Assembly: GCA_019347675.1 (NCBI GenBank)
Contig: JAHWKW010000005.1
Coordinates: 62,001-126,000, forward strand
DNA: 64,000 nt
Direction of reading: 5' to 3'
Origin: Actinomycetota bacterium
GTDB taxonomy: Bacteria > Actinomycetota > Nitriliruptoria > Nitriliruptorales > JAHWKO01
Shown here piece after piece: positions 1 to 64,000 of the stretch (positions are counted from its first letter, which is position 1; each line of letters opens with the position of its first letter). The notes under the pieces were generated by a model, which worked only from the letters and a program-made list of their open reading frames with translations, had not been told where the DNA came from and did not search any database. The position numbers were made by a program, and so were the translations under genes.

Positions 1-160
1 GTGTTGCCGTCGGTGGCGATGCGGCTGACCCCGTCGTAGGTGATCGTGATCGTGCCCAGCGGGTCGCGCGGGTCGATCGACGTCAGCTGCCCTCGGTGTC
101 GTAGCCGTACACGGTGGCAGGGTCGGAGCGTTCGTCGACCGCATGGAAGCCCCGGCTTGC
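1..160 (-). pseudogene. RHS/YD-repeat gene fragment with frameshift, running off the left edge
   Basis: Read on the minus strand, about 115 to 92 encodes VYGYDTEG. After loss of one base near 83-91, the next frame continues QLTSID, then DPLGTITITYDG to the window edge. This is the YD-repeat pattern of RHS-type secreted polymorphic toxins or wall-associated proteins. In the first frame a stop follows immediately at 83-85. Upstream of about 160 no RHS text is recognisable, so the 5' part is missing or degenerate. The break could be a true pseudogene or a sequencing error. The right-hand limit is approximate. Confidence 0.6.
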
Positions 161-458
161 TGCGCGCAGTTGGACCAGCCCACCGAGAGCCAACGACCGG
201 TGTCGCGATTTCGGTCGGTGTGAGGTGTTCGGGTTGCAACCGGTGACGCCAGCTGCCCGCCCCGACCGCTCCTGACATCGCCGTGACACCGACCGGCCGG
301 GTATGGTCCGCGACAGGAAAGAACGCCGGGGACAGCACGACCTTGCTTCCGCAGGTCAGCAGCACCACTATCCGCGACCAGCGGGGATCGGCCGCAACGC
401 TCTTTCGTGGGATTCCCAGTCCCTGCCTCCCAGCTGTGATGCGCCGCATGGAGGCGCC
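161..458. other. Non-coding stretch upstream of glmU
   Basis: No coding sequence with convincing codon bias or a family match is seen on either strand. A reading frame on plus runs into glmU from 303, but its first 52 codons look unlike GlmU and the real start is at 459. The glmU promoter presumably lies here. I could not identify a good -35/-10 pair. Confidence 0.5.
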
Positions 459-55682: not shown

Positions 55683-56828
55683 GTGGCGATCTCCTTCGCG
55701 CTGACCCCCGAGCAAGAGGAGTTCCGCCGCGTGGTGCGGTCGTTCGCTGAAGCCGTCATCGCCCCGGCGGCGGCCGAGTTCAACTCCGCCAGCGAGTTCC
55801 CGGTCGACATCGTGCGCCAGATGGGCGACATGGGGCTGTTCGGCATCCCCTTCCCTGAGGAGTACGGGGGGATGGGCGGCGACTTCCTCACCCTGTGCCT
55901 GGCGATCGAGGAGATCGGCCGCGTCGACCAGTCACTGGGCATCACGCTCGAGGCGGCCGTCGGGCTGGGCGCCGAGCCGATCCGGCGGTTCGGCACCGAC
56001 GCACAGCGCCGCCGTTGGCTCCCGGCGCTCGCACGGGGACAGGCGCTGGCCGGGTTCGGATTGACCGAGCCGGGCGGTGGCTCGGACCTTCGGCGGGCCA
56101 CCACCACACGAGCCCGGCTCGAGGACGGCGAGTGGGTCATCGACGGCCGGAAGGCGTTCATCACCAACGCAGGCACGCCGTTGACGTCCCTGTGCACGGT
56201 CACCGCCCGCACCGGGCAGGACGAGATCTCGTGTCTGGTGATCCCCGTCGACACCCCCGGGTTCAGCGTCTCACCGCCCTACCGCAAGGTCGGCTGGCAC
56301 GCCTCGGACACCCGCGAGGTGATCCTCGACGGGGTCCGCGTCCCCCAGGACCACCTCCTCGGGGAGCGGGGTCGCGGACTGGCCCAGCTCCTGGCCGTCC
56401 TCGACGACGGCCGGATCGCGATGAGCGCGCTGGCGGTCGGTCTGATCCAGGGTTGTGTCGACGAGTGCAGCGCCTACGCCCGCCAGCGCGAGGCGTACGG
56501 CCGGCCGATCGCCGAACTGCAGGCGGTGGCATTCACGATCGCCGACCTCGAGGTCGCCGCCCAGACCGCCCGTGCGATGTACTGGCACGCCGCGTGGCGG
56601 AAGCTTCAGGGGTCGCCGTACAGCCACGAGGCGTCGATCGCGAAGCTGTACGCATCCGAGCAGGCGGTGACGGCCGCCCGGGCGGCCTGCCAGGTCTTCG
56701 GCGGGTACGGGTACATGACGGAGTACCGCGTCGGGCGGTTCTACCAGGACGCGAAGGTGCTCGAGATCGGCGAGGGGACCTCCGAGGTGCAGCGGCTGCT
56801 GATCGCCCGTCACCTGGGCCTGCTGTGA
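55683..56828 (+). CDS. Acyl-CoA dehydrogenase
   Basis: FAD enzyme making trans-2-enoyl-CoA in fatty acid or branched-chain acyl-CoA oxidation. The 381 residues match the family. Visible are GIPFPEEYGGMGGDFL, GFGLTEPGGGSDL (FAD site), KAFITNAGTPLTSLCTV, and QVFGGYGYMTEY. The catalytic base is likely E364 in GEGTSEVQR, the short-/branched-chain position. GTG 55683 follows CGGAG. It is just downstream of birA and near the carboxylase, which suggests odd- or branched-chain acyl-CoA breakdown. Confidence 0.92.
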   Translation: MAISFALTPEQEEFRRVVRSFAEAVIAPAAAEFNSASEFPVDIVRQMGDMGLFGIPFPEEYGGMGGDFLTLCLAIEEIGRVDQSLGITLEAAVGLGAEPIRRFGTDAQRRRWLPALARGQALAGFGLTEPGGGSDLRRATTTRARLEDGEWVIDGRKAFITNAGTPLTSLCTVTARTGQDEISCLVIPVDTPGFSVSPPYRKVGWHASDTREVILDGVRVPQDHLLGERGRGLAQLLAVLDDGRIAMSALAVGLIQGCVDECSAYARQREAYGRPIAELQAVAFTIADLEVAAQTARAMYWHAAWRKLQGSPYSHEASIAKLYASEQAVTAARAACQVFGGYGYMTEYRVGRFYQDAKVLEIGEGTSEVQRLLIARHLGLL

Positions 56829-56836
56829 TCAGCCGG

Positions 56837-56851
56837 TAGCTTCGCCCGAGC
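56837..56851 (+). promoter_or_regulatory. Near-leaderless promoter of the gene at 56852
   Basis: TAGCTT (56837-56842) is followed by nine bases and ATG 56852. The implied leader is only two or three bases, too short for a ribosome binding site. Confidence 0.35.
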
Positions 56852-57643
56852 ATGCCCGAGAAGTACACCAGCCTGATCGCACTGGTCGTCGACCGCCCGG
56901 TCGAGGACGTCGGTGCGGTGGTCGACGCGGCCCGTGACGCCGGCGACGTCGACCGCAACGCGCCCGTGGGCACCGCCGCGGAGGCCCAGGAGGTCGCCTG
57001 GGGCGGCCGGATGGGCAAGGCGGTGGTCCGCGCGGTGGAAGGCCAGGATGGTGCCCCGATGCTCCGCGCCGAGGCCTACATCGGGGCGGAGGGGATCCGC
57101 AACGGGATGCGCCGCCACGCCCAGCTGCTCCTGTCGTTGGCCCGCCAGCTCGGGGACCGCGTCCGTGGCGTGCGTGACCTGTCGGCCGCGCAGGACCACG
57201 AGCCGGGGTGGTTGGCGCGCGTCGCCGGCGGCGACATGCAGGTCTCCGACGCGATCCACGTGCACGCCGAAGGCCGGGGCACCCACTGGGTGCACTCACA
57301 CGGCGCAGCCCGCTTCGACATCCCCGACCTGGAGCTGTACGGGGTGAACCGCCCACAGCTGGCAGCCGCCGAGCAGCTGATCCGCCACGTGCACGACCAG
57401 CTGCTGCGTGCCGGGCTCCGGGTGGACCTGACCATGCCCGACGGCGCCCGCATGTACCTGGTCCCGGTCCTGGAAGCATGGTCGAAGCTGCCGATGGACT
57501 GGCCCGGCGTGGGCCGCGCCGACGAGAGCCGTCCCGGTCACGACGGGCCGCGCGCCACCCTGTCGGTGCTGCACAAGCGCCGGTTCGGCCGGTACCGCAA
57601 GGACATCAAGGGTGTGGTCAAGCGTCTGGCGAGCGAACGCTGA
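56852..57643 (+). CDS. Uncharacterised protein, possibly DUF4026/DUF2314-like
   Basis: A soluble 263-residue protein with good codon bias. No catalytic motif is recognised. The segments VSDAIHVHAEGRGTHWVHSHGAARF (about 130-155) and PDLELYGVNRPQLAAAEQLI recall DUF4026-type proteins, but the match is uncertain. The C-terminus is basic (HKRRFGRYRKDIKGVVKRL). A TAGCTT box nine bases before the ATG suggests an almost leaderless message. It converges on the XRE-cupin gene with only three bases between. Confidence 0.75.
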   Translation: MPEKYTSLIALVVDRPVEDVGAVVDAARDAGDVDRNAPVGTAAEAQEVAWGGRMGKAVVRAVEGQDGAPMLRAEAYIGAEGIRNGMRRHAQLLLSLARQLGDRVRGVRDLSAAQDHEPGWLARVAGGDMQVSDAIHVHAEGRGTHWVHSHGAARFDIPDLELYGVNRPQLAAAEQLIRHVHDQLLRAGLRVDLTMPDGARMYLVPVLEAWSKLPMDWPGVGRADESRPGHDGPRATLSVLHKRRFGRYRKDIKGVVKRLASER

Positions 57644-57646
57644 CCG

Positions 57647-58228
57647 TCAGCGGCGGCTCGCTTCGTGCAGTGGCGACTCGGCGGGGACTCCACCGAGGTA
57701 GCTGACGATCAGCGCCGCGCGGACCTTGCCCTCGACCGCCTCGAAGACGTGTGCGCGGTCGGCGGCGAACGAGATGTAGTCGCCGGGGCGCAGCTCGGTG
57801 GGGGCCTCGGCGGGTCCGACCTTCAGGACGCCCTCGTACACCAGCACGCGTTCGGTCGTCCCGCTGCCGTGCGGGGTGTACTCGATGCGCATCCCCTGTT
57901 CGTAGCGAAGGTCGTAGACCTCGACCGCACCGTGCGGGACGAACGCGTCGATCGGGACGTCGTCGGTCCCCGGCCGCTCCGCGTCGCCGGCTCGGATCAC
58001 ATGGAACGGGGGGCCCTCGCGCTCCAGAAGCAGATCGCGTACCGGAACCCGTAACGCCGCGCCGAGGGCCGTCAACGTCGACACGGTCGGGTTGCCGCTG
58101 CCGGCCTCGAGCGACGACAGGGTCGCCTTGGCCACCTTGGAACGTCGAGCCAGCGCCGACAGCGACAGCCCCTGGGCGTTTCGCAGCCGTCGGATGTTCG
58201 ATCCGATTTGAACCGATGGATCGTTCAC
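57647..58228 (-). CDS. XRE-family regulator with C-terminal cupin domain
   Basis: A 193-residue transcription regulator. The helix-turn-helix at about 8-63 contains IRRLRNAQGLSLSALARRS and KATLSSLEAGSGNPTV, followed by a cupin sensor domain at about 95-180 (GTTERVLVYEGVLKVG, LRPGDYISFAADRAHVFEA). Such regulators often control amino-acid, amine or sugar use. GTG 58228 is the start. An inverted CGATCC/GGATCG pair (58199-58204, 58218-58223) lies within its first codons. The target genes are unknown. Confidence 0.88.
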   Translation of the reverse strand: MNDPSVQIGSNIRRLRNAQGLSLSALARRSKVAKATLSSLEAGSGNPTVSTLTALGAALRVPVRDLLLEREGPPFHVIRAGDAERPGTDDVPIDAFVPHGAVEVYDLRYEQGMRIEYTPHGSGTTERVLVYEGVLKVGPAEAPTELRPGDYISFAADRAHVFEAVEGKVRAALIVSYLGGVPAESPLHEASRR

Positions 58229-58316
58229 GTCCCCACCGCATGGTGTCCCTGTCGCGACCAGGATACGCGAATTTCGTGGTGGACGGTCCGTTCGGGCAGA
58301 TCGTTCGCTTCTGCGC

Positions 58317-59534
58317 TCACGCGATCTCCGGTTCGTGCCAGCCTTCGTCGCCCACGGGGCGGGTGTCGCCGCTGATCGCGCGCAGCGCCGGGGCGCCCTC
58401 CTCGGGGCCGATCGCCAGGATCCGGTCGCCGACCTGTAGCCGCCGCGAGGAACGCGGCCGGTACACCCAGCGGCTCTCGCGTTCGACCGCCAGCACCTCC
58501 ATCCCGATCTCCGTCTGCAATCTCAAGTCAGCCAAGGTGCGCTCCTCGGCCGCCGATCCGGGCGCCACGACCGCTTCGGCCACGATCTCGTCGGCTTCGG
58601 ACAGCGCCTGGGCGATCACCGGATGCGGGAGGTCCTCTTGCTCGATGATGCGAGTCATGGATTGGGCCGCGTCCGCGATGCGCTCCGACGCGGACGCCAG
58701 GTGCATCAGCCCGCGCAGCGACAGGGGGTCGTCCGCTTCGGCTGCGGCCCGTAGCACCCAGGCCTCCAGCTCGTTCCACAGGACGTCGGTGCGGTCCTCG
58801 ATCACGGCGACCTCGGCTGCCAGTCCCCGATCCCGCAGCAGGATCGCGGAGTAGGCCAACCCGACCGCGACCTCGCTGGCGTTCTTGAGCTCGACGCAGA
58901 GGTCCACCGCACGGTCGAGGTTGGACAAGGTCCGCCGCTCGGCCGGTGGTGGTCGCTCCCGGGGGGCGGCGCCGGCCAGCTCACGCACCAGGTCGACGCC
59001 GTCCGAGGGGCCCTGCAGGAACAGGACGTCACCCTCCCTCAGGATCAGGTCGCCGCCGGGGCCGAACACGAACTCCGCGTCCCGGCGGACCGCGATCGCC
59101 CACATGCCGGTATGGGCGGCCAGGGCCAGGTCGCGGAGGCTGCGGCCCTCCAGCTGGTTGTCGGGGCGGATCTTGACGCGGGCGACGACCTCGGCGGCGT
59201 GCCGCAGGTCGTCGCGCAGTTCACGGGGGACGCCGAGGTCGCGGAGCGCGACACGGGCGATCTCCTCGGCGGCGCCAGCGATGCCTTCGATCGCCACGGC
59301 AAGGTGCAGCACATCCGATAGCCGCTCGGCGTCCTCGGGGGTGCGCGCGGCGAGCATGCACACCAGGCGGAGCTCGTGCAGGGCCTGGTCGAGGTTGTCT
59401 TCCAGGCGCAGGACCTCCCGGCCGAGGTCGACGTCGTCGAAGAACACGGCTGCGTAGGCCAGGTCCACCATCAGCTCGGCAGCGTCCTTGGCGCTGACCA
59501 GGAGCTCCTTGACGGTGCGGCGTTGTGGTCGCAT
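58317..59534 (-). CDS. PhoU-TrkA_C duplicated regulatory protein
   Basis: A 405-residue cytosolic protein with two units, each a PhoU-like helical bundle followed by a TrkA_C (RCK_C) ligand-binding domain. Unit one covers about 1-195 (VKELLVSAKDAAELMVDLAY, GDLILREGDVLFLQGP). Unit two covers about 210-395 (VDLCVELKNASEVAVGLAYS, EIGMEVLAVERESRWVYRP, LQVGDRILAIGPEE). TrkA_C domains bind small ligands and gate transporters. ATG 59534 lies two bases from the end of the MgtE-like gene, so it is very likely its regulatory partner. Confidence 0.88.
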   Translation of the reverse strand: MRPQRRTVKELLVSAKDAAELMVDLAYAAVFFDDVDLGREVLRLEDNLDQALHELRLVCMLAARTPEDAERLSDVLHLAVAIEGIAGAAEEIARVALRDLGVPRELRDDLRHAAEVVARVKIRPDNQLEGRSLRDLALAAHTGMWAIAVRRDAEFVFGPGGDLILREGDVLFLQGPSDGVDLVRELAGAAPRERPPPAERRTLSNLDRAVDLCVELKNASEVAVGLAYSAILLRDRGLAAEVAVIEDRTDVLWNELEAWVLRAAAEADDPLSLRGLMHLASASERIADAAQSMTRIIEQEDLPHPVIAQALSEADEIVAEAVVAPGSAAEERTLADLRLQTEIGMEVLAVERESRWVYRPRSSRRLQVGDRILAIGPEEGAPALRAISGDTRPVGDEGWHEPEIA

Positions 59535-59536
59535 GT

Positions 59537-60805
59537 TCAACCCCCCAGGACAGCCGCGATGCCGACCATCAGGCAGAGCACACCCAGCAGGTCCATGGTC
59601 GCGGTCACGATCGGGATGCCGTGGTTGTCCGGGTCGAGCCCGAACCGGTAGGTCGCGGTCGCGGCGCTGTACGCGACTGCCGAGAGCAGCACGAACGCGA
59701 TCGCGCCTCCGAAGAGCGTGATGCCCAGCAGTTGCGGCAGCGTCGGCGTTGCCAGCCCCAGCAGCGCCGCCGCGATCCGGGTGACCACCGCCACCCCCGT
59801 GAACACCGTGGTCGCGAAGAGGAACGTCATCGAGATGTCCAGCCCGGCGGTCTTCCCCGGGAGGGGGCGCGGTTCGAGCAGGCCCAGGTGCAGTTCCGAC
59901 GAGAAGCGGCTGGCGAGGATGCCCCCCAGCGACCCGGACGCGGCGATGAACGGCGGGATCAGCACCAGCAGCGCCGGGACTCTGAAGAACTCCTCGGCAC
60001 GTGCCTCGACGACGGTGCCGGCGAAGATGTCGACGGTCGCGGCCAAGGTGAGCACGAAGATCGACTCGCGCACGATGCGGCGGACGTTGTGATCGGGATG
60101 CCGCCATCCGTACCACAGCGCGGCGGCTCCCACGGCCATGCTGGCCCCGGCCAGCACCGGCGTGAGGATCGCGATCCCCACCAGCAGTGACGCCAGCAGG
60201 AGCATCGGGACCGTCACCAGGTCGCCGGTGGCGGTGATGGTCGGAGCGCCCACGTCGTCCATGTTCCACCCGCGGGCGTACGCCTGTCGAGCCAACAGGA
60301 TCGTCACGACCAGGAGCACCACCGACGACAGGGTCCCACCCACCACCGAGATGACCATCAGGTCCGCCAGGTCGGCATCGATCCCGAACGCCCGGCCGAT
60401 GAACCACGCCAGGACCCCGATCTCCGCAGTGGTGGTGAACGTCAGCACCGTCGCGGCTTCGATCTGCCGGCCGAAGAAGTTCCTGCGGGTCAGCTCGATG
60501 CTGAACTCGCCGATGTGGATGCCGGTCGACAGCCGGGCGGCCAGCGCCCCGAAGTTGTTCCCGCGCATCCCGATGGCTGCGGGGATCAGCACGAGGAGAC
60601 CGGGCAAGGATTCCAGGCGCTGGGTGGACGACCCCAGCACGATCCCCGCGACGAGCGTCGCCAGCAACCCGAGCGACAACGCCGCCAGTCCGCGGCGGAT
60701 CGCCTGGCGTTCGCGGTACCAGAAGCGGGTGACCTCGGTGACCGGCAGGCCCAGCGCGGCGCCCAACGCCCGGAGCGGCGCGGGGACCCGCGGCCGGACC
60801 CGCAC
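59537..60805 (-). CDS. MgtE/SLC41-type divalent cation transporter with duplicated membrane domain
   Basis: A 422-residue membrane protein carrying two MgtE-type integral domains in tandem, like eukaryotic SLC41 and unlike MgtE itself, and lacking the cytosolic N and CBS domains. Repeat one contains IPAAIGMRGNNFGALAARLS and DDVGAPTITATGDLV; repeat two contains IPPFIAASGSLGGILASRFS and DPDNHGIPIVTATMDLL. These matched motifs line the Mg2+ pore in the family. GTG 60805 is the start. The following PhoU-TrkA_C gene probably supplies the missing regulation. Confidence 0.88.
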   Translation of the reverse strand: MRVRPRVPAPLRALGAALGLPVTEVTRFWYRERQAIRRGLAALSLGLLATLVAGIVLGSSTQRLESLPGLLVLIPAAIGMRGNNFGALAARLSTGIHIGEFSIELTRRNFFGRQIEAATVLTFTTTAEIGVLAWFIGRAFGIDADLADLMVISVVGGTLSSVVLLVVTILLARQAYARGWNMDDVGAPTITATGDLVTVPMLLLASLLVGIAILTPVLAGASMAVGAAALWYGWRHPDHNVRRIVRESIFVLTLAATVDIFAGTVVEARAEEFFRVPALLVLIPPFIAASGSLGGILASRFSSELHLGLLEPRPLPGKTAGLDISMTFLFATTVFTGVAVVTRIAAALLGLATPTLPQLLGITLFGGAIAFVLLSAVAYSAATATYRFGLDPDNHGIPIVTATMDLLGVLCLMVGIAAVLGG

Positions 60806-60963
60806 GCTGGGTCGGGTCCGAGGGCGACGCGCGGCGGTGTCGTCGTCGCGGGCCAGTCCCGACCTCCCCCTGCTCGCGGCGCCCGAGCGTAGCCTCGCGG
60901 CTGGCGGCCTCTGTCGGCTGCCCGCACGTCCCTACGCGCGCGGGCCAGCTGCAGGGAGCCTGA

Positions 60964-61668
60964 TCACCTCGCCCACACCGCGACCCGTTCGGCGCTGGCC
61001 GCGCCCCGGTCGACGCCGGCCAGGATCACGGTCGGTTCTCCGGTCACCAGCGGGCGGATGATCGCGGGGATCCATACGGCCGGTTCGGCGTTCGCGGGGA
61101 CGCCCAGGGCCCCTTCGTCCTCCCACTGGCGCGCCGCCGCCAGCAGCCCCGCCTGCGTGCGTTCCTCGCCGCCCGTGAACAGAGCAGCGCGTTCCGCCGC
61201 CGCCTGTGGGTTGGGATGAACGTCGGGGAAGGTCTGCACGGCCACGGCCCAGGGCTCCGAGCTGGTCTGCCCGGTCGGTGTCCCGTCGGGGGCGTCGCCG
61301 ACCGCGTAGACGTCGTGGGCGTCCTCGGGGGGGTGCAGCTGTTCGTGGTGGACCGCGACCGGGGCGTCACGGTCGACGGTGAGGCTGGCGCCGATCCACC
61401 ACGCCGCGAAGCACACCACGGCCGCCGGCCAGCCGGCGGGGCTGTGCAGGCGGACACGGTCCCCGGCTTCCAGGAGGCACTCCAGCTCCAGCAGGTGCGC
61501 TCCCTTCGCCGTCCACCGCAGGAGCGAGGCGAACCCCTGCTCGTCGCGACGGTCGGGCCGGACCACGGTGATCGCCGGGCGGTGACCCAGCGACTCAGCG
61601 GCCCCGCGCAGTGCCTGGGCCAGGTCGGTGGCGTCCGGGGGACGCCGGCGGGGGCGGCCGAGCTCCAC
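60964..61668 (-). CDS. TIGR03089 family protein
   Basis: An actinobacterial protein of 234 residues, distantly related to the N-terminal part of AMP-dependent acyl-CoA synthetases but lacking their ATP and AMP motifs. It shows LLRWTAKGAHLLELECLLEAGDRVRL, PAAVVCFAAWWIGASLT, and WAVAVQTFPDVHP near residue 145. GTG 61668 has AGGAG 8 bases upstream. It is divergent from the LCP gene, an association known in related actinobacteria. The function is not established. Confidence 0.85.
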   Translation of the reverse strand: MELGRPRRRPPDATDLAQALRGAAESLGHRPAITVVRPDRRDEQGFASLLRWTAKGAHLLELECLLEAGDRVRLHSPAGWPAAVVCFAAWWIGASLTVDRDAPVAVHHEQLHPPEDAHDVYAVGDAPDGTPTGQTSSEPWAVAVQTFPDVHPNPQAAAERAALFTGGEERTQAGLLAAARQWEDEGALGVPANAEPAVWIPAIIRPLVTGEPTVILAGVDRGAASAERVAVWAR

Positions 61669-61889
61669 GGTCGTCTCCTGGCTGGTGCGACGCGCGTCGT
61701 GGCCGGACGGTACTCGACCACCCCCCGCCCCTCGTCCCAAAAGGCAGCGTCTTCACGCGACCTGCGACGCTCCTTCGGCCGAACCGACCTGCGCTGATAC
61801 CCTGCGCCGTCGGTCGGGCGGATGGGCGCCGTCGGCCCGCCGTCGCGGTCGCCTGTCGCCCCTTGGCGGCGGATGCCGCTGGGAGCCGG

Positions 61890-63317
61890 ATGTGGGAGCC
61901 ACTCGACGCTGTGCAGCCCGACGCACGCTCCTCGCTGTTCGTCTCGGCTCGGTCGGCCAAGCGCCGGTCGGCGGTGAGGCGGGTGGTCCGTCTGGCCTTC
62001 GCGGCTGTCACGGTGTTGGCGCTGCTGGCCTCGGTCACGGTCGGGGCGCTGTACGCCTACGCCGGGAAGCGGTTCGCCCAGCACCCCATCGACTGCCTCG
62101 CTGACCGCACCGCCGGTTGCGGCGAGACCAACGCTGTCGAGCCGGTCGACGGGGTGCGCAACGTCCTGGTGGTGGGTAACGACAGTCGTGTCGGTTTGAC
62201 CCCCTCGGAGCTCGAGCAGCTCGGCACGGAACAGCTGCAGGGACCGGACCGGGCGGACACCATCATGCTCGTTCACCTCTCGCCGCGGCGTGACGACGCG
62301 GTCGTGGTGTCCTTCCCGCGCGACCTCCGCGTCGACATCCCCGGAGAGGGACGCAACCGGATCAACGCGGCGCGGGCGTTGGGCGGGCCGGAGCTGATGG
62401 TGAGAACCGTCGAGGACTACACCGGTATCCCCGTCCACCACTACGTCGAGCTGGACCTGGCCGGCTTCCTCAGGCTCGTCGACCTGATCGATGGGGTCGA
62501 GGTCTGTCTCGACGAGCCACTCGTCGATGCTGCGGCCGGTGCCGACCTCGCCGCAGGCGAGCACGTGCTCCGCGGATCCGACGCTGCCGCGTACGTGCGT
62601 GCGCGCAAGAGCGACCCGCGTGGTGACCTCGGCCGCATCGAACGCCAACAGCGCTTCATCCGCCAAGCGCTGCGGAAGGTTCTCGCCCCAGCGACGCTGG
62701 TCAACCCGCTGCGGGTCAAACGCCTCATCGACCAGGCGGCGTCCGCCGTGGTCACCGACTCGGGGTTCACCACGTCCGACATGCTGCGCCTGACGTGGTC
62801 GTTCAAGGATCTGGATCCCGGATCGCTGACCATGGTGACGGTGCCTTCCGATCTCGGCCCGCGCTACGTCGAGGCTCGACCCGAGGAGGCCGAAGCTCTG
62901 TTCCAGGCCATCCGGGTCGACGAGCCGGTCCCGGCCCGCGAGGAGGTCACGGTCGTCGAACCCGGCGACATCCGCTTGGCCATCCTCAACGGCGTGGGGG
63001 TCGACGGCCTGGCTGCCGGGGCTGCGCAACAGCTGACCGACGCGGGCGTTGAGGTGGTCGAGACCGGCAACGTCGACGACTTCGGGCGTGAGCGCACCGT
63101 GATCATGTACGGTCCGGGCGACCTGCCGCTCGCCCGGTTCGTCGCCGGGTTCTTCCCCGACGCGGACCTGGCCGAGACGGACATGACGGGGCAGGGGAAC
63201 GTCCAGGTCATCCTGGGGACCGATTGGGCGGCGGCGCCCCAGGTCGCCCGGCCACCGCCGGTCGATGAGCCGCCCACCGCTCCTGCGCCCCCAGCCCCGG
63301 CCAGCACATGCGTCTGA
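61890..63317 (+). CDS. LytR-CpsA-Psr (LCP) family ligase with LytR_C domain
   Basis: Transfers anionic polymers from lipid carriers to peptidoglycan at the outer membrane face. The 475 residues have a cytoplasmic basic N-terminus, one membrane helix (about 33-55), and the LCP catalytic domain at about 85-300. That domain has VGNDSR, RADTIMLVHLSP, VVSFPRDLRVDIP, NRINAARALGG and ARKSDPRGDLGRIERQQRF. A LytR_C domain follows at about 362-440 (IRLAILNGVGVDGLAAG). The tail is proline-rich. ATG 61890 has GGGAG 5 bases upstream. A second LCP gene follows at once. Confidence 0.93.
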   Translation: MWEPLDAVQPDARSSLFVSARSAKRRSAVRRVVRLAFAAVTVLALLASVTVGALYAYAGKRFAQHPIDCLADRTAGCGETNAVEPVDGVRNVLVVGNDSRVGLTPSELEQLGTEQLQGPDRADTIMLVHLSPRRDDAVVVSFPRDLRVDIPGEGRNRINAARALGGPELMVRTVEDYTGIPVHHYVELDLAGFLRLVDLIDGVEVCLDEPLVDAAAGADLAAGEHVLRGSDAAAYVRARKSDPRGDLGRIERQQRFIRQALRKVLAPATLVNPLRVKRLIDQAASAVVTDSGFTTSDMLRLTWSFKDLDPGSLTMVTVPSDLGPRYVEARPEEAEALFQAIRVDEPVPAREEVTVVEPGDIRLAILNGVGVDGLAAGAAQQLTDAGVEVVETGNVDDFGRERTVIMYGPGDLPLARFVAGFFPDADLAETDMTGQGNVQVILGTDWAAAPQVARPPPVDEPPTAPAPPAPASTCV

Positions 63318-63327
63318 GACGGTCGCC

Positions 63328-64000
63328 GTGAACGGCGCGGCGGAGCAGGCACCGGGGGCACTGCCGGTCAGGTGGGGGTTCGGGGGCGGAGGGCGCAAGG
63401 CCATGCGGATCGTGGCCGTCGTCGCCGCGGTCGCCATGGTCGCGGTCGCCGTGATCGGTGGGTCCCTGTACCGGGTCGCCGACCACAACGTCGAGCGGGT
63501 GCAGTTGCCGGCCCTGGCAGACAAGACCAGCGCCGCCGAACCGATCAACGTGCTCGTCGTCGGTTCGGACTCGCGCGACGGGTTGACGCCAGAGGAACGT
63601 CACAGATACGTCCTGGGTCCTGCCTACGCGGGTCAACGCGGCGACAGCGTGATCCTGGTGTCGATCAGCCCCGACCGTGCCGACGCTGCAGTGGTGTCGT
63701 TCCCGCGCGATCTGCTCGTGGTCGATGGCGAACGCGAGTCGAAGTTGACCGAGACGTTCGCCGGCGGCCCCGACCACGTGGTCGAGGTGCTGCAGCGCGC
63801 GACGGGGGTGCCGATCCACCACTACGTCGAGATGTCGATCCCGGGTTTCCTCGGCGTGCTCGGGGCCATCGGCGGAGTCGAACTGTGCATCGACTACGAG
63901 CTGCGCGACGTGAAGTCCGGTGCGGACCTGCAGCAGGGCTGCCACGAGCTGACGCCGGCGCAGGCGCTCGCGTTCGTCCGGTCACGGAGCACGCCGCTGG
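63328..64000 (+). CDS. Second LCP family ligase, cut by the right edge
   Basis: The first 224 residues of another LytR-CpsA-Psr protein, 10 bases after the previous one. A membrane helix lies at about 27-46, followed by VLVVGSDSRDG, GDSVILVSISPDR, VVSFPRDLLVV, KLTETFAGGPDHVV and the arginine of LAFVRSR. It is distinct from, but clearly related to, its neighbour, so the two probably arose by duplication. GTG 63328 is the likely start. The C-terminus and any LytR_C domain lie beyond the window. Confidence 0.9.
   Translation, partial: MNGAAEQAPGALPVRWGFGGGGRKAMRIVAVVAAVAMVAVAVIGGSLYRVADHNVERVQLPALADKTSAAEPINVLVVGSDSRDGLTPEERHRYVLGPAYAGQRGDSVILVSISPDRADAAVVSFPRDLLVVDGERESKLTETFAGGPDHVVEVLQRATGVPIHHYVEMSIPGFLGVLGAIGGVELCIDYELRDVKSGADLQQGCHELTPAQALAFVRSRSTPL

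Follow-up and report, generated by a model that had tools for sequence, protein, structure and literature searches.

A conserved gene pair encoding an MgtE/SLC41-like pore and a probable separate PhoU-RCK_C regulator in Actinomycetota

The 64,000-nucleotide stretch of Actinomycetota DNA analysed in this study, hereafter called the window, carries two adjoining genes on its minus strand (60805-58317), namely, an MgtE-type pore gene followed by a gene for a PhoU/TrkA_C protein. The two genes constitute a real and conserved system, in which an MgtE/SLC41-like pore is accompanied by what is probably its separate PhoU-RCK_C regulator. As for the function, we infer that the pair is a divalent-cation transporter, most likely for Mg2+, that is controlled in trans by the PhoU/RCK_C protein, a reading that we regard as reasonably probable. 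The parts of the pair are known, and their combination is little noticed; our literature search found no paper on a pair of an MgtE pore and a PhoU/TrkA_C regulator.

The gene pair and its conservation among relatives

Table 1. Positions of the gene pair and its neighbours in the window
Feature	Position	Strand	Remarks
Pore gene	59537..60805	-	422 aa, GTG start, stop codon included
Regulator gene	58317..59534	-	405 aa, ATG start, stop codon included
Intergenic gap, pore stop to regulator ATG	59535..59536	-	two bases, reads TGA-AC-ATG
HTH regulator gene	57647-58228	-	PF01381; follows the pair closely, in the same orientation
Gene upstream of the pore	60964-61740	-	TIGR03089 match slightly below cut-off (78.8 vs 85 bits)
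Two LytR_cpsA_psr genes in tandem	61611-63999	+	first with LytR_C domain; second runs off the window

The preliminary description had placed a protein with two PhoU-TrkA_C units two bases away from the pore gene, and both the spacing (Table 1) and the domain content (see below) were borne out. A mechanically predicted open reading frame of 696 aa (60407-58317) was rejected as the regulator gene because it is too long, and the ATG at 59534 agrees with the homologues. Judging from the sequence, a run of G just upstream of this ATG could serve as a ribosome-binding site. Rfam scans detected no riboswitch at positions 56000-64000 of the window or in 12 relative loci, where three tRNAs were the only matches. 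Scanning of positions 58100-61200 revealed no promoter-like site and one terminator-like site, which lies inside the regulator gene and is at background level.

Among 149 genomes of the phylum, near-full-length pore and regulator genes were found in the identical 48 genomes and neither gene in 101, and no genome had a single one of the two; 29 further genomes of this set gave short regulator matches only, mostly to TrkA_C. This shared occurrence is far beyond chance, and the identical presence and absence supports the earlier proposal that pore and regulator form a functional unit. In 46 of the 48 pair genomes, the two genes are direct neighbours with the same orientation. In one of the other two, G117, contig C127 ends with the regulator and C128 begins with a pore fragment, and in the other, G134, the two genes lie on different contigs (loci L152 and L153), far from the ends. 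Unlinked genes in relatives, which the preliminary description had taken to speak against the link, thus occur in G134 and perhaps in L057 (see below). The functional link is not refuted by the unlinked case, because G134 retains both genes though they are apart. A CorA gene is located about 0.1 kb downstream of the pore in G134, at the usual place of the regulator gene.

Within the class, 66 genomes were surveyed, 13 of which also belong to the 149 phylum genomes: both genes were found in 50, neither in 13, and one gene in three (G181, G189, and G200). The single gene found in G189 and in G200 borders on a contig end; in G181, the pore match ends at residue 410 of 422, and the regulator was not found in the assembly. 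One genome counted as having both genes (G201) has a 31-residue pore fragment beside the regulator.

Linkage was also followed in 80 named loci, which come from 415 relatives, among the matches listed, and of which the titled ones are all bacterial. The pore lies within the locus in 76 of the 80, again among the matches listed. Three of the remaining loci (L105, L115, and L129) have the regulator at a contig edge; L057 does not, and no pore was found inside its 9.9-kb locus. The distance from the pore stop to the regulator start is -10 to 60 bases in 63 of the 76 loci, and the pore of L083 lies 2.1 kb from the regulator. None of 129 loci has the pore fused in frame to the regulator, and 33 pattern matches on viral contigs included no relative of the pair.

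Some loci are unusual in their organization. G106 has two pore genes in tandem followed by one regulator gene (C63:168249-171951). G157 has a second pair (C11:45557-47988), in which both pore and regulator are broken by stops or frame changes, in addition to an intact pair on C26. In G010 (contig C66, L011), the pore occurs as two overlapping pieces in different frames, which represents a frameshift, either real or from sequencing.

Architecture of the pore and the regulator

The pore protein matches the PF01769 (MgtE) profile in two stretches (106.6 bits against a cut-off of 27.6), and our domain scan matched neither MgtE_N nor CBS in it; MgtE_N and CBS are present in all four canonical MgtE proteins scanned from the same phylum. 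These results agree with the earlier view of two MgtE halves in one chain, as in SLC41, without the gating domains of MgtE. The pore family is presumably COG1824 and the regulator family COG3273. An AlphaFold2 model of the pore (pLDDT 94.3, pTM 0.90) contains 5-helix MgtE halves at about residues 33-206 and 239-420, which are joined by an extra helix (214-234) with transmembrane-like hydropathy. With this 5+1+5 layout, both pore halves can lie parallel; the subunits of the MgtE homodimer lie parallel. The model suggests that the pore is a pseudo-dimer consisting of two MgtE transmembrane bundles in one chain.

When the pore model was compared with solved structures by VIA-align, four MgtE entries ranked first with Z scores of 15.3 to 13.7 (next row, 9.6), each covering about one half, to be read with the caveat that helical bundles may reach a Z score of about 13 through arrangement alone. 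The top match was T. thermophilus MgtE (4u9l; Z 15.3, rmsd 4.0, 177 of 178 residues aligned). Foldseek alone gave no match for the pore model at E 0.001 or better. A MATE fold, which topped the Foldseek list (best E 1.1e-3), was set aside, with VIA-align ranking MgtE clearly first.

We aligned the pore of the window with 54 others, redundancy-thinned from 66 near-full-length pores (55 were proposed, and L061 was removed by hand; L146 and L149-L151 gave no pore frame under the filter used). The PX6D aspartates, D195 in half 1 and D405 in half 2, are invariant in all 55 proteins, and we take this aspartate to be the pore Asp of MgtE. The PX6D motif is found in 54 of the 55 proteins in half 1 and in all 55 in half 2, where PDX4PX6D is also complete in all 55. 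Of the other MgtE motif, PX6GN, the PX6G part is present in half 1 of all 55 proteins, with N as the next residue in 25, and in half 2 of 54, with mostly A or S as the next residue.

The domain scan of the regulator matched two PF01895 (PhoU) units and two PF02080 (TrkA_C) units, the latter with 93.9 bits in two stretches, in the order PhoU unit 1 (8-97), RCK_C 1 (about 113-188), PhoU unit 2 (205-297), and RCK_C 2 (about 315-388). Besides these domains, the scan gave just two matches, both below cut-off; neither TrkA_N (RCK_N) nor a DNA-binding domain was matched. Sensing of NADH or ATP, ligands listed in the preliminary description, is unlikely to occur through an RCK_N domain, given that the regulator has no TrkA_N match.

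In the predicted regulator structure (pLDDT 87.5, pTM 0.85), VIA-align superposed Pseudomonas PhoU (4q25) with a Z score of 21.3 and an rmsd of 2.6 over 195 residues spanning positions 5..302 of the model. Because this match spans both units, the two units, each of three helices, are predicted to fold into a single PhoU body; an ordinary PhoU also carries two PhoU units. The initial argument that two PhoU-TrkA_C units fit two pore halves was dropped for this reason, and the archaeal halves are separate genes with a regulator that is still double (see below). The RCK_C domains of MthK, KhtT, and BusR match the regulator with Z scores of 13.5-13.9 and rmsds of 1.1-1.5, that of MthK (3rbx) with a Z score of 13.9 and an rmsd of 1.2 over 76 residues. 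The match of the regulator to the PhoU equivalog TIGR02135 reaches 34.1 bits, far under the cut-off of 130.25. Its nearest solved relative is Pyrococcus PH0236 (E 4e-38 over residues 5-191, 35-36% identity).

Relation to Mg2+ transport and possible mechanisms

In the window's own genome (96.7% complete), the pore is the sole PF01769 place, and scanning detected no CorA and no MgtA-type ATPase over the cut-off. We compared Mg2+ transporters in 33 good genomes of the class (at least 90% complete, at most 5% contamination), counting CorA only over the cut-off and defining canonical MgtE as PF01769 places outside the pair, of which four were scanned for CBS. None of the 33 genomes lacks all three of the pore, canonical MgtE, and CorA. 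CorA is missing from 19 of them, 11 of which have this pore alone, five canonical MgtE alone, and three both; the regulator was found in 10 of the 11 genomes with the pore alone, a group that includes the window's genome (the exception is G181). Canonical MgtE occurs in five of 27 good genomes with the pore versus five of six without it (Fisher p 0.005, a value that ignores shared descent). Within the class, the pair partly replaces canonical MgtE, and one genus has the pair in one member (G024) and, in its place, canonical MgtE in two others (G063 and G174). In the other 33 class genomes, which are less complete or more contaminated, all three transporter types are missing from G175 (78% complete) and G155 (59%), and an MgtE fragment is all that G159 (78%) has.

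Across the 149 phylum genomes, canonical MgtE is found in eight of the 48 with the pair versus 42 of the 101 without it (p 0.003). We considered the pair as the sole Mg2+ importer across the phylum and rejected this idea: both CorA and any other MgtE are lacking in seven of the 48 pair genomes and also in 10 of the 101 pair-less genomes (p 0.42), so the argument fails phylum-wide. CorA is matched in 38 of the 48 pair genomes, weakly in two of these (G051 and G081), and the weak match of G051 (24.6 bits, under the cut-off) is scored as present in the phylum count and absent in the class count.

CorA relatives also lie in 12 of the 80 named loci, among the matches listed, and in two layouts: five loci have the CorA gene upstream in the orientation of the pair (the match in L108 is weak, with overlapping frames), and seven have it downstream on the opposite strand (L073 was checked with Pfam). 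By rough arithmetic, about 0.3 loci would be expected in 708 kb at roughly one CorA per 2.6 Mb, a contrast that is inflated by shared descent. The Mg2+-type role originally proposed is supported as far as a place near Mg2+ homeostasis is concerned, by the partial substitution of the pair for canonical MgtE within the class and by the CorA neighbours.

The gate of canonical MgtE is built in, its MgtE_N-CBS part closing the pore. In the mechanism that we propose, each MgtE bundle of the single-chain pore would contribute one pore aspartate, and the regulator, with its PhoU body and two RCK_C domains, would sit on the cytosolic face of the pore and open or close it in response to a ligand or ion on the RCK_C pair and/or the PhoU body. 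Mg2+ would be the substrate and uptake the direction.

Two alternatives concern the direction and the substrate. The pore may work outward, as an SLC41-like (Na+-coupled) Mg2+ exporter that is activated by the PhoU/RCK_C protein at high Mg2+ or osmolyte load, with CorA importing. Two MgtE domains without CBS are the layout of SLC41, which passages of two papers report as a Na+/Mg2+ exchanger (PMC9276622, PMC6410215), so efflux is conceivable for this pore, and the occurrence of CorA near the pair in 12 loci and in 38 of the 48 pair genomes fits such a division of labour. We nevertheless consider export unlikely: the protein that the system replaces within the class, canonical MgtE, is an importer, CorA and canonical MgtE are both missing from 11 of the 33 good genomes, and reports on the direction of SLC41 are described as conflicting in the relevant part of PMC9276622. 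It is less probable still that the substrate is another cation (K+, Ca2+, Mn2+, or Co2+) and the PhoU/RCK_C protein a K+-type RCK subunit of the ordinary kind, Mg2+ being suggested by the family name only. RCK_C domains are best known from K+ systems, and PH0236, the relative with a solved structure, bears the title 'putative potassium channel related protein'. The PF01769 match, the pore Asp conserved in both halves, the exchange with canonical MgtE in the class, and the CorA neighbours all weigh against another cation.

The role of the PhoU/RCK_C protein may also differ from gating. PhoU proteins are generally known to signal in phosphate control as well, and the protein could act in signalling or gene control and merely be co-transcribed with the transporter. 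We judge this improbable in view of the identical presence and absence of the two genes in 149 genomes, their retention when unlinked, the absence of a DNA-binding domain match in the regulator, and the known pattern of separate RCK_C subunits beside transporters, which is seen in Halorussus (see below).

For a trans-controlled Mg2+ transporter, c-di-AMP is one candidate ligand. The window's own genome encodes a diadenylate cyclase domain, and according to part of one paper, c-di-AMP binds RCK_C and CBS domains, B. subtilis MgtE being one such case (PMC8844918). The c-di-AMP pocket of BusR is given in a section of PMC8517857 as I153, G154, N157, V158, H160, A164, T165, I166, and P181. In an alignment of the window's regulator with 54 of 80 regulators, hydrophobic residues are kept at the positions of I153 and V158, and the position of A164 is mostly Met or aromatic. 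Neither RCK_C unit retains the polar rim of the BusR pocket, and N157 and H160 rank outside the five most frequent residues in both units. An excerpt of PMC12453120 states that S. mitis TrkA binds c-di-AMP although it shows little conservation of the KtrA pocket residues. At the level of residue conservation, the RCK_C pocket appears to give c-di-AMP no specific support, and the PhoU body may just as well bind a metal or phosphate.

Known systems and the history of the pore halves

The pore resembles MgtE (TC 1.A.26; T. thermophilus 2yvx, 2zy9, and 4u9l) in its PF01769 match, 5-helix bundle, and P(D/A)X4PX6D-type motif with the pore Asp, and differs from it in having two halves in one chain with a linker helix and in lacking MgtE_N and CBS. 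SLC41A1-A3 and archaeal two-domain MgtE share two MgtE domains per chain and no CBS, as described in parts of PMC9276622 and PMC6410215, a likeness of layout; unlike them, the present pair is bacterial and has a conserved separate regulator gene. The solved relative from Pyrococcus horikoshii, PH0236 (1vct, 2bkn, 2bko, and 2bkp), consists of a single PhoU + RCK_C unit of 205 aa, half of the double arrangement in the regulator; our literature search on PH0236, 1vct, and 2bkn returned unrelated titles. KhtT/KhtU, KtrA/KtrB, and TrkA/TrkH also combine a cation transporter with a separately encoded RCK_C subunit; however, their membrane partner is not MgtE, the RCK_C domains here sit on a PhoU body, and KtrA and TrkA carry RCK_N, which was not matched in the regulator. 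PhoU and PhoU_div (DUF47) likewise have two PF01895 units forming the PhoU fold, to which the regulator adds two RCK_C domains, and the regulator scores far below the PhoU equivalog cut-off. PhoU_div occurs beside Pit transporters.

According to a portion of PMC9276622, double-motif MgtE occurs only in Archaea, choanoflagellates, and metazoa, the archaeal and metazoan ones being without CBS, and SLC41 might be differently regulated; that article and PMC6410215, as far as the portions consulted go, assign two-domain CBS-less MgtE to archaea and animals and one-domain MgtE to bacteria. Other partial sources mention some prokaryotic proteins with two MgtE domains (PMC13022745) and a Heimdall archaeon protein related to the eukaryotic MgtE subfamily (PMC7997004), and in one the MgtE, PhoU, and TrkA proteins are treated as separate systems (PMC3087415). 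The window and 47 of 148 other phylum genomes indicate that bacteria, too, have double-motif CBS-less MgtE, together with a candidate regulator. The pair thus offers a simple prokaryotic system for asking how gate-less MgtE/SLC41 pores, human SLC41 included, are controlled.

A search of 72,556 plasmid records with both window proteins gave one matching record, from the haloarchaeon Halobaculum roseum. In this locus, a gene for a 401-aa two-unit regulator is followed after two bases by separate genes for MgtE halves of 186 and 189 aa, and corA comes after the half-pore genes on the opposite strand. The neighbourhood of COG1824 and COG3273 in archaea has presumably already been seen by automatic annotation. 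Of 55 comparisons by phmmer score for each Halobaculum half, 54 put the first half nearer to bacterial half 2, and 54 put the second nearer to half 1. In trees using 19 of the 55 pores (CAN_L133, with a branch length of 10 and probably a wrong frame, was left out of the second tree), the second Halobaculum half joins bacterial half 1 (support 100/97), the first is basal, and a 100/100 branch separates canonical MgtE from all bacterial and Halobaculum halves. Topology tests did not reject placing the first Halobaculum half with half 2 (p-AU 0.38), rejected placing it with half 1 (0.006), and marginally rejected a clade of the bacterial halves alone (0.048). These sequence relationships suggest that the pore halves were probably distinct before joining in one chain, or that the chain was split in Halobaculum.

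A broader and doubtful idea is that trans gating by a PhoU-RCK_C protein, which senses a second messenger or an ion, was the ancestral state of the MgtE pores with two halves and no CBS, a branch with bacterial and archaeal members to which SLC41 belongs by its layout. If so, the gate of an Mg2+ channel would be a detachable subunit, and animal SLC41 would have lost this subunit and come under other control.

On a plasmid of the archaeon Halorussus vallis (L154, 2312-3988), a separate TrkA_C protein is encoded directly before a cation:proton antiporter, in a KhtT/KhtU-like layout.
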